Source of the DNA: Pseudomonadota bacterium
GTDB lineage: Bacteria > Pseudomonadota > Gammaproteobacteria > Burkholderiales > SG8-39
Assembly (NCBI GenBank): GCA_021811085.1
Contig: JAJZPQ010000001.1
Location: 145,428-200,655 of the forward strand
DNA length: 55,228 nucleotides
Direction: 5' to 3'
This document shows positions 36,476 to 55,125 of the stretch, piece by piece. A program made the position numbers and the translations under genes. How positions within the stretch are numbered: position 1 is the stretch's first letter; each line of letters starts with the position of its first letter. Under the pieces are notes generated by a model. That model did no database searches. It was not told where the DNA came from and was given only the letters and a program-made list of their open reading frames with translations.

Positions 36476-37912
<1,437 letters not shown>

Positions 37913-37950
37913 GTAGCAGCAGCAAGGGCTCGAGGGTGGGTTTTGTACAA

Positions 37951-38001
37951 GATCGTCGATTGTGCACGGATGTGCTTTTTATCCGTGCACAATCGACGAT
38001 C
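37951..38001. repeat. Perfect hairpin IR1, 21-9-21
   Basis: Left arm 37951-37971 begins GATCGTCGATTG and ends CGGAT; loop GTGCTTTTT (37972-37980); right arm 37981-38001 is its exact complement. The loop-proximal core GGATGTGCTTTTTATCC resembles that of the second hairpin when the latter is read on the other strand. Lies 38 bp after the cysS stop. No U-tract follows, so it is not a standard terminator. Confidence 0.9.
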
Positions 38002-38002
38002 C

Positions 38003-38026
38003 GCGCGGACGGGGCGCCGTCCGCGC
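38003..38026. repeat. GC-rich hairpin, 10-4-10
   Basis: GCGCGGACGG (38003-38012), loop GGCG, CCGTCCGCGC (38017-38026), perfect. It immediately follows IR1, so the transcript folds into consecutive stems. Confidence 0.8.
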
Positions 38027-38079
38027 AAGCTCTGGCGCTGTAGATCGACGTCACCTGCAACGTCCGCCTTTGTCGGTGC

Positions 38080-38123
38080 GCGACCATTGCGCGCTCCGCG
38101 CGCCAACCGTGTTTTCCGTATGG
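38080..38123. repeat. 44-bp dispersed repeat, copy 1
   Basis: Runs from GCGACCATTGCGCGC to CCAACCGTGTTTTCCGTATGG. The copy at 55082-55125 differs at six of 44 positions. It contains the small stem GCGCGC-TCC-GCGCGC (38089-38103), preserved in the other copy by a G-U pair, and continues into the left arm of hairpin IR2. Confidence 0.8.
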
Positions 38124-38155
38124 ATGAAAAACGCATCCATACGGAAAACACGGTT
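38105..38155. repeat. Perfect hairpin IR2, 21-9-21
   Basis: Left arm 38105-38125 begins AACCGTGTTTTCC and ends TGGAT; loop GAAAAACGC (38126-38134); right arm 38135-38155 is exactly complementary and ends CACGGTT. Same geometry as IR1, unrelated outer arms, shared core (GGATGCGTTTTTCATCC on the minus strand). It lies 58 bp beyond the convergent dnaJ stop. Confidence 0.9.
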
Positions 38156-38213
38156 CTGAATAAAAACAACAACGGAAGAGCGGTTCGAGTCGCCGCGTAT
38201 GGCGGTTTCCTTG

Positions 38214-39338
38214 CTATTCAGCAAAAAATTCTTTCACCTTGTCCATCCAGGATTTTGCGCGCGGGTTGTGCCGGTCCGAGTCTTTCACGTTGATCGCCTC
38301 GAGTTCGCGCAGGAGTTCCTTCTGCCGTTCGGTGAGGTGCACCGGCGTCTCGACTACCATATGACACAGCAAGTCGCCGTGCGCGTGGCTGCGCACGCCT
38401 TTGATGCCTTTGCCGCGCAGGCGAAAGATCTTGCCGCTCTGCGTTTCGGCCGGGATCTTGATCCTGGCCGACCCCGACAGCGTCGGGATCTCGATTTCTC
38501 CGCCCAGCGCCGCCACGGTAAAGCTGATCGGCATTTCGCAATGCAGGTCGTCGTGATCGCGCTGGAACACCGGATGCGGCTTCAGATGCAGCTGCACGTA
38601 CAGATCGCCCGGCGGCCCGCCGTTGACGCCGGCCTCGCCCTCGCCGGAGAGGCGGATGCGATCGCCTTCGTCCACGCCCGCCGGAATCTTGACCGACAGC
38701 GTCTTGTGCTGCTTGATGCGGCCGGCGCCCTGGCAAGTCGTGCAGGGGTCGGCGATGATCTTGCCCGTGCCGTGGCACTTGGGGCAGGCCTGCTGGATGG
38801 AAAAGAATCCCTGCTGCATGCGCACCTGGCCCTGGCCGCCGCAAGTGGTGCAGGTTTTGGGCTGGGTGCCGGGCTTTGCGCCCGAGCCGTGGCAGGTGCC
38901 GCATTCGTCCATGGTGGGAATGCGGATCTTGGTCTCGGTGCCGTGCGCCGCGGCCTCGAGCGAGATCTCGAGGTTGTAGCGCAGGTCGGCACCGCGGTAG
39001 ACGCTGGAGCGGCCGCCGCGCGCCTGGCCGAAAATGTCGCCGAAGATGTCGCCGAAGGCATCGGCGAAGTTGGAGAACCCGGCGCCCTGCGCGCCGGCCG
39101 CTGCCGACGGATCGACGCCGGCATGCCCGTAACGGTCGTAGGCGGCGCGCTTTTCCGCGTCGGAGAGCATTTCGTAGGCTTCCTTCGCCTCCTTGAATTT
39201 CTCCTCCGACTTGCCCTTGTCTTCCGGGTTGCGGTCCGGGTGGTATTTCATCGCGAGCTTGCGGTAGGCCTTCTTGATCGCGTCTTCGTCCGCGTCGCGA
39301 TTGACACCCAGTATTTCGTAGTAGTCGCGCTTTGCCAT
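38214..39338 (-). CDS. dnaJ: Chaperone DnaJ
   Basis: 374 residues. Type I J-protein: J-domain with HPD (MKYHPDRN), Gly-rich region, four zinc-finger repeats ([32 protein letters not shown]) and substrate-binding C-domains. Stimulates DnaK ATPase. Last gene of hrcA-hemH-grpE-dnaK-dnaJ; a GC-rich hairpin separates it from dnaK, so it is probably expressed at a lower level by read-through. Confidence 0.98.
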
Positions 39339-55081: not shown

Positions 55082-55125
55082 GCGACCGTTGCGCGCTGCG
55101 TGCGCCAACCGTGTTTTTGGTACGG
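55082..55125. repeat. 44-bp dispersed repeat, copy 2 (5' exon of the intron)
   Basis: GCGACCGTTGCGCGC...CCAACCGTGTTTTTGGTACGG, 38 of 44 bases identical with 38080-38123. The inner stem GCGCGC-TGC-GTGCGC is kept through a G-U pair. It lies 45 bp after the dctM stop and runs straight into the intron 5' end. Confidence 0.8.

Follow-up and report, generated by a model that had tools for sequence, protein, structure and literature searches.

Two perfect hairpins between cysS and dnaJ as a probable copy of a BIME-like palindromic repeat family with two directional unit types

In an uncultured member of the Burkholderiales, the gap between the convergent genes cysS and dnaJ contains two long and perfect hairpins, which raises the question of whether these are isolated structures or copies of a repeat family and, in the latter case, how such a family spread. 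They lie within a window of 55,228 nucleotides (the whole stretch of DNA that was analysed). A preliminary description had assigned to both hairpins, IR1 and IR2, a 21-nt arm, a 9-nt loop and a fully complementary 21-nt arm (21-9-21), with different outer arms around a shared loop core, and had proposed a mobile or programmed hairpin family. The perfect 21-9-21 geometry of IR1 was confirmed. IR2 is perfect as well; its arms measure 22 nt around a 7-nt loop, so that the 21-9-21 notation is also valid. The agreement of the two loop cores at 14 of 17 positions was likewise recovered, and neither stem is followed by a U-tract. A simple terminator scan of the window gave a single weak site (38187-38208, versus 0.7 expected), away from both stems. 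Among the additional stems noted between the hairpins, two are the second stem-loops of the IR1 and IR2 units (Table 1), while no conserved counterpart was found for the other small one.

Table 1. Features of the two-hairpin locus in the window.
Feature	Position	Strand	Basis or remark
Intergenic gap of the whole feature	37913..38213	.	between convergent cysS (36476-37912, +) and dnaJ (38214-39338, -)
A unit, conserved head GGTTTTGTACAA (family consensus GGTTTTATACAA)	37939..37950	+	alignment, 18 of 20 core-pattern A copies
A unit, long stem-loop (IR1, 21-9-21)	37951..38001	+	perfect hairpin; stem covariation
A unit, second stem-loop GCGCGGACGG ggcg CCGTCCGCGC	38003..38026	+	nearly invariant in 18 aligned copies
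Tail-to-tail A/B linker	38029..38084	.	similar sequence and spacing elsewhere
B unit, second stem-loop GCGCGC gga GCGCGC	38089..38103	-	unvarying across the 25 aligned copies
B unit, long stem-loop (IR2, 21-9-21 or 22-7-22)	38105..38155	-	perfect hairpin; stem covariation
B unit, conserved head TTTTTATTCAG (family consensus nTTTTATCCAT)	38156..38166	-	alignment, 25 of 28 core-pattern B copies
End motif of the A-type extended element	38180..38201	-	pattern search, 2 mismatches; 13 nt past the dnaJ stop codon

In 20 first-order Markov sequences of the length of the window, the longest perfect arm (loop 3-15) was only 9-12 nt, so arms of 21 and 22 nt are far beyond chance. Folded as single-stranded DNA, the long stems reach z = -12.1 and -11.4 versus shuffles, and with up to 2 mismatches the core occurs twice in the window versus 0.04 expected. 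The only Rfam match above its gathering score in the window is a tRNA; at the hairpins the best match is mir-4520 (45.7 bits versus a gathering score of 90), and a known RNA family was rejected on the basis of such weak matches.

The loop core GGATGnnnTTTTnATCC is present in 48 exact copies in the 4.48-Mb genome from which the window derives, against 0 for the reversed-pattern control. This bears out the reading as a hairpin family and, together with the arm lengths, rules out chance hairpins. Copies of the core GGATGNNNTTTTNATCC split by their arms into two types, A (the IR1 type, 20 copies) and B (the IR2 type, 28 copies). With covariance models, at least 66 A units and at least 73 B units (at least 139) were located at 76 places in this genome. 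These counts are lower bounds, with at most 150 candidates scored per model; 66 of 143 rows were kept for A and 73 of 146 for B, the rest being the opposite strand of a hairpin, the other unit type or decayed pieces. Neither of the two outcomes that would have spoken against a family, namely copies without 21-nt arms or a total of just two copies, was observed.

Alignments were made of 18 of the 20 A copies (A1; L019 and L034 left out) and of 25 of the 28 B copies (A2; L024:1473, L030 and L031 left out). From 5' to 3', a unit consists of a T-rich head (GGTTTTATACAA or nTTTTATCCAT), the long stem-loop, one base, a short stem-loop and AA. The whole measures about 80-90 nt, comprising the 51-nt long hairpin and the second stem-loop. 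By eye, no unpaired GTAG or CGTC tag was found at the unit ends of A1 (18 copies) and A2 (25 copies); CGTC is present solely within the paired stems of A. The arms had been called variable, and they do differ in sequence between copies. They are not arbitrary, however: types A and B each have an arm consensus, with compensatory changes. The suggestion of programmed hairpins found no support. Elsewhere in the window (55089-55125), a weak half B unit (25 bits, model positions 44-80) lies just past a predicted gene as a decayed copy.

The two types are combined according to a strict rule. The 76 places comprise pairs (48 head-to-head, 8 tail-to-tail), single units (12 B, 5 A) and 3 longer arrays. 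All 63 neighbour pairs in this genome join an A to a B, with no A-A and no B-B pair. Of these pairs, 51 are head-to-head, 10 tail-to-tail (the form of the window) and 2 in the same direction, so that 61 of the 63 are inverted. They fall into two spacing classes, with gaps of 8-19 nt in 50 head-to-head pairs (44 nt in one) and of 46-57 nt in the tail-to-tail pairs, whose linker gap is 55-57 nt in 9 of 10 cases; arrays hold up to 5 units. In loci of other genomes, neighbours of the same type were seen twice (L201, where one unit is partial, and L207). A second tail-to-tail form is found in other genomes, with a gap of 14-15 nt and a small palindrome of its own, AGGTTTTnnCAAAACCT, in 6 distinct cases (among the loci with this form are L233, L185, L172, L112 and L262). 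Remnants of an A foot were seen by eye next to single B units, and the single units look like remnants of doublets.

The family is concentrated in one uncultured Burkholderiales genus, in which 11 of 14 genomes have 54-115 raw B-model matches; the copy-poor congeners G004, G007 and G013 have 2-3 each. Among 26 genomes outside the genus, one from another genus (G018) carries a diverged form. An order-wide draw of 399 genomes, which may or may not include G018, was scored with stricter filters and 10 candidates per genome and gave matches solely in the window's own genome and in G124. Spread to another genus through G124 was not accepted, as bin contamination is possible: JADGRR, the sister MAG of the MAG JADGRQ from the same study, contains many family copies. 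When named genomes were scanned with the pattern, at least 102 stretches were returned, and among those listed 101 stem from 13 MAGs labelled Burkholderiales, Betaproteobacteria or Proteobacteria. The one other, a Bryobacterales match (L238), is a chance match without arms. Further locus searches covered 99 of the at least 102 stretches. Viral contigs gave 0 matches to the core pattern, and one element of the own genome matched nothing among plasmids and phages; carriage by phages or plasmids was rejected for the queries used.

Many copies appear to be old. Among the fetched loci, 34 orthologous gene junctions were identified, 32 of which have units in at least two genomes. Since these loci were mostly fetched for holding units, site sharing is over-represented in this set. 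In 31 of the 32 junctions every shared unit type keeps its orientation, as read from the table, the exception being L174/L228. It is because sites shared between species keep their orientation that many copies can be taken as old, and head-to-head and tail-to-tail forms at one junction consequently resemble the outcome of different losses in a single array, e.g. A>B<A>. The dnaJ-cysS junction itself was fetched by dnaJ, without such bias, and is readable in 8 genomes. Units are present in three (the own genome, G005 and G011), and none were detected in the other five (G001, G004, G007, G010 and G013), although remnant-like stretches were seen by eye in G010 and G013. In G005, A and B stand head-to-head at this site. 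Together with the end motif downstream of dnaJ (Table 1), this suggests that an A unit may formerly have stood at 38180..38201 in the window and has since been lost. The three copy-poor genomes lie apart from each other, among copy-rich ones, in a midpoint-rooted tree built for 9 genomes from dnaJ and a portion of dnaK (supports 100/99, 87/90 and 81/83), which favours independent losses. The fold must also be dispensable, because 3 of the 14 congeners, with only 2-3 B matches, sit among copy-rich relatives.

How does the family relate to the repeat systems that are already known? In the cited parts of Di Nocera et al. (2013, PMC3733652), tagged REPs are given as 20-40 bp long, with stems of 8-9 bp in the CGTC class, GTAG or CGTC as end tags and no dedicated transposase for the CGTC class. 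The same parts describe dimers, including heterodimers, mostly between unidirectional or convergent genes and near gene 3' ends. The A/B family resembles the REPs so described in its many extragenic palindromes, its head-to-head and tail-to-tail dimers and its position at gene 3' ends; copy number and extragenic position thus agree, whereas the unit of about 80-90 nt exceeds the REP size range and has a 21-bp stem, a second stem-loop and no tag. BIMEs are regularly spaced REPs of alternating orientation, as defined in the portion of Nunvar et al. (2010, PMC2817692) used here. Alternating orientation, regular spacing, doublets and longer arrays, and complementary changes in the palindromes are shared with the BIMEs of that account. 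Unlike these, the A/B neighbours are of two types with unrelated arms in every pair of the own genome, the units are not REPs and there is no RAYT link.

A similar division is seen for the REPINs, whose two ends are, in the cited section of Bertels and Rainey (2011, PMC3116915), inverted repeats of each other and able to form one long hairpin. As with the REPINs of that section, the inverted doublet is the main form and single units look like its remnants. The A and B arms are unrelated, though, in all 63 pairs, and because of this each unit folds alone. TIRYT families are defined, in the part of the review consulted (PMC3733652), by TIRs flanking a tyrosine-transposase gene. Like these, the A/B repeats are untagged, sometimes self-complementary and organised as dimers; unlike what is stated there, they flank no transposase gene at the fetched Y1 loci, save for one pair on one side of the gene at L262. 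Nor do they flank either of the two RAYT genes, as the repeats of a REPtron would. The family is BIME-like in behaviour, yet lies outside what defines tagged REPs, REPINs and RAYT-linked repeats. No description of such families in Betaproteobacteria or in this genus was found in literature searches aimed at them, which is no proof of their absence from print.

Taken together, the window feature is probably one copy of a BIME-like, non-autonomous palindromic repeat family with two directional unit types, A and B. The basic form is a head-to-head A+B pair of about 190 bp, with longer, partly conserved flanks and, in some copies, GTATA-like ends. Arrays like A>B<A> are present as well, and the window's tail-to-tail arrangement is readable as one of these after the loss of units. 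The family may have spread by transposition-like copying in an ancestor of this genus, with recognition of each unit in the form of a folded single strand that has a defined polarity. From then on, copies would mostly have been inherited, with units dropping out singly, and the remaining ones may have had their fold maintained by selection or by arm-templated correction. Copy number, the two types, heterotypic pairing, spacing, the position 3' of genes, covariation and orthologous sites, both shared and empty, were observed directly. Against the BIME-like mobile reading stand the failure to find a mobilising enzyme, the single clean empty site, the same-type neighbours at L201 and L207 and the three near-free congeners. 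Any present function is most likely local, at the transcript 3' end or in folded DNA, but this is a guess. The frequent inverted pairing of palindromic repeats and their common preference for heterodimers have no obvious explanation according to the excerpted part of PMC3733652. Here the pairing rule is strict, the stems are unusually long and covary, and the genus holds both copy-rich and copy-poor members, so that this rule, the strand being read and what loss of the family costs become directly comparable. A possible but rather less probable alternative is that these repeats form a separate class of mobile palindromes, in which directional two-stem units of two types would work only as A+B, on one folded strand and with an undescribed enzyme. 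Such a class would occur solely in one uncultured Burkholderiales genus and close relatives of it, and at least three species would later have lost it independently.

The stems were analysed in 342 non-identical units from all fetched loci, the statistics being restricted to units with at least 16 of 21 pairs. As many as 301 reach 19 or more of the 21 pairs, and across all 342 the loop measures 9 nt in 280, 7 nt in 35 and 8 nt in 23, in line with the earlier expectation that the arms vary while the 21-9-21 geometry stays. Of the 21 long-stem pairs, 9 in type A and 10 in type B had changes on both sides. None of 500 shuffles reached the covariation score, a comparison in which related sequences can exceed shuffles, and shifting the partner by 1-3 columns destroyed the pairing. 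Sixty comparisons of orthologous units, which are not independent, comprise 1,260 stem pairs, 984 unchanged and 276 changed. Among the latter, 167 are two-sided changes that preserve pairing, 16 are two-sided changes that are non-pairing in one copy, and 93 changed on one side (58 to G-T, 17 A-C and 18 other).

The wobble pairs are unevenly placed. On the unit's own strand, G-T prevails over A-C by 114 to 9 (A 75:6, B 39:3) at stem positions 15-16, which adjoin the CGGAT/ATCCG clamp in both unit types; these counts pool copies of shared descent, uncorrected for kinship. By tandem gene direction, the ratio at these positions is 25:0 for the same and 37:1 for the opposite direction. All other stem positions have 93 G-T versus 75 A-C, which is not different from even. 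As the excess is limited to positions 15-16, one strand is special at these two positions and there is no general preference; an overall G-T excess along the stem was dropped. In quasi-palindrome correction, mismatches between the arms are corrected by strand-switch copying, and the repeats could be old copies whose stems are perfect solely by this route, without selection. This explanation is unlikely. It would account for a within-copy complementarity (0.94 and 0.96) that exceeds the between-copy arm identity within each type (0.78 and 0.80), for the many double changes at orthologous units and for the near parity of G-T and A-C outside positions 15-16. However, it leaves unexplained the strand-specific wobble in both unit types as well as the conserved heads, the second stem-loops and the spacing.

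For the BIME-like family favoured here, the mobilising enzyme is a findable target, and none has been found. Matches to PF01797 occur in 11 of the 14 genomes of the genus. Of 21 fetched Y1-transposase loci of the genus, with flanks of up to 1.5 kb (shorter at contig ends), 20 contain no unit. L262 (genome G011, another species, with an IS200-type gene) has one A>B< pair 254 bp upstream, on one side only. Canonical RAYT genes are L278 (G005) and L269 (G007), which are 81% identical; with the NCBIfam RAYT model, whose cut-off is 80, L278 reaches 149 bits. Both are surrounded by 5-6 matches of a GGGAGCGAGCTTGCTCGCG REP, not by A/B units, and with these repeats they serve as a positive control for RAYT-flanking repeats. 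A RAYT as mobiliser was rejected given that no units lie near these two genes, which carry another REP, and the link to a RAYT or IS200-type gene raised by the preliminary description is not supported so far. The window itself has, at 893-946, a perfect 24-6-24 hairpin, each arm of which contains GTGGGAGCGAGCTTGCTCGCGA. This Pseudomonas-type REP is the one found around the RAYT genes L278 and L269.

A single-copy Y1 protein of about 200 aa (G000:C53) is a further candidate. It is found in 10 of the 14 genomes at 70-82% identity. The family could be a REPIN or BIME proper, moved in trans by a Y1 (HUH) transposase, most likely this protein, a distant relative of RAYT; we hold this reading to be rather improbable. 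Unit polarity and strand-specific wobble would fit the recognition of a folded single strand. The protein is present in 9 of the 11 copy-rich genomes, of which the two lacking it are 89% and 59% complete, and in 1 of the 3 copy-poor ones, but this co-occurrence is not significant (Fisher p = 0.18). It resembles the NCBIfam model REP_Tyr_transpos, with scores (53.4 and 43.8 bits) under the cut-off of 80. Against such a role, no units were found near the ten genes, the true RAYT genes are ringed by a different REP and the units have no GTAG or CGTC tag by eye. Immediately upstream of the gene for the ~200-aa protein (L106, L266-L268, L270, L271 and L274-L277), a conserved tcaactcgccagccaccc..ccgttgtt is present in most genomes, and the sequence downstream is mostly different, a pattern that would fit movement of the gene itself.

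The family copies are nearly always located 3' of genes. With a codon-usage gene caller, 181 distinct clusters were assigned: 90 to tandem, 54 to convergent and 5 to divergent gaps, with 1 overlapping a called gene (1 of 150 placed) and 31 too close to the end of a contig or locus. Among the gaps of 100 bp or more that lack elements in these loci, 130 tandem, 11 convergent and 62 divergent ones were counted after de-duplication. Clusters are therefore depleted from divergent gaps (5/149 versus 62/203, p 6e-12) and enriched in convergent ones (54/149 versus 11/203, p 2e-13). The median distance from gene 3' end to unit edge is 52 nt. Bidirectional transcription terminators or stabilisers of mRNA 3' ends, selected and not mobile, would be expected to lie in this way, close to gene ends and rarely in divergent gaps, and the stems are indeed kept at shared sites. 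Yet there is no U-tract, no direction is preferred in tandem gaps (32 B<A> versus 28 A<B>), units are missing at 5 of the 8 readable dnaJ-cysS junctions and three genomes are nearly free of them, all of which makes this explanation doubtful. Rho-independent terminators in particular were rejected, with no U-tract and a negative terminator scan at the stems.

The ends of the elements were also considered. Correia and MITE-type elements are short, non-autonomous and intergenic, with terminal repeats. The A/B family is also short, non-autonomous and intergenic, but its terminal repeats are weak and restricted to a minority of copies. Outside the second stem-loops, related end motifs with up to 4 substitutions were found in 9 of 170 A tails and 7 of 182 B tails, versus 0 and 0 in the same tails for the reversed and reverse-complemented control motifs. 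The A-type end has 7 matches in the own genome, and 5 of them adjoin units. One clean empty site, the comparison of L223 with L158 (GCGCATTATGAAGTC versus GCGCATTATAC...GTATATAAGAAGTC), displays presence and absence of the insertion. These observations would fit a MITE whose terminal inverted repeats enclose the hairpin pair and which is moved by a TA-targeting DDE transposase. Such an element is nonetheless quite improbable: the motif is missing from most tails, the target duplication at the L223/L158 joint is ambiguous (none or TA) and one pattern search of the own genome found no autonomous element with such ends.

Some B units of the family are themselves interrupted. In two of them (L030 and L031, G000:C111), the second stem-loop is split by an identical insertion of about 26 bases (cccccaggaggacttgcttcgcggcgca). 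At two contig ends (L057:1595-1770 and L046:1595-1771, on G000:C86 and C76), a repeated sequence interrupts the long B hairpin at the same place. This sequence received no intron call from Rfam. It resembles, with 72% identity, the end stretch of a group II intron reverse transcriptase gene (L144:4397-6154; TIGR04416, 355.6 bits), and the reverse transcriptase next to the related sequence suggests that the interruption may be a group II intron. Group IIC introns are reported, in the cited portion of PMC7923331, to target stem-loops.
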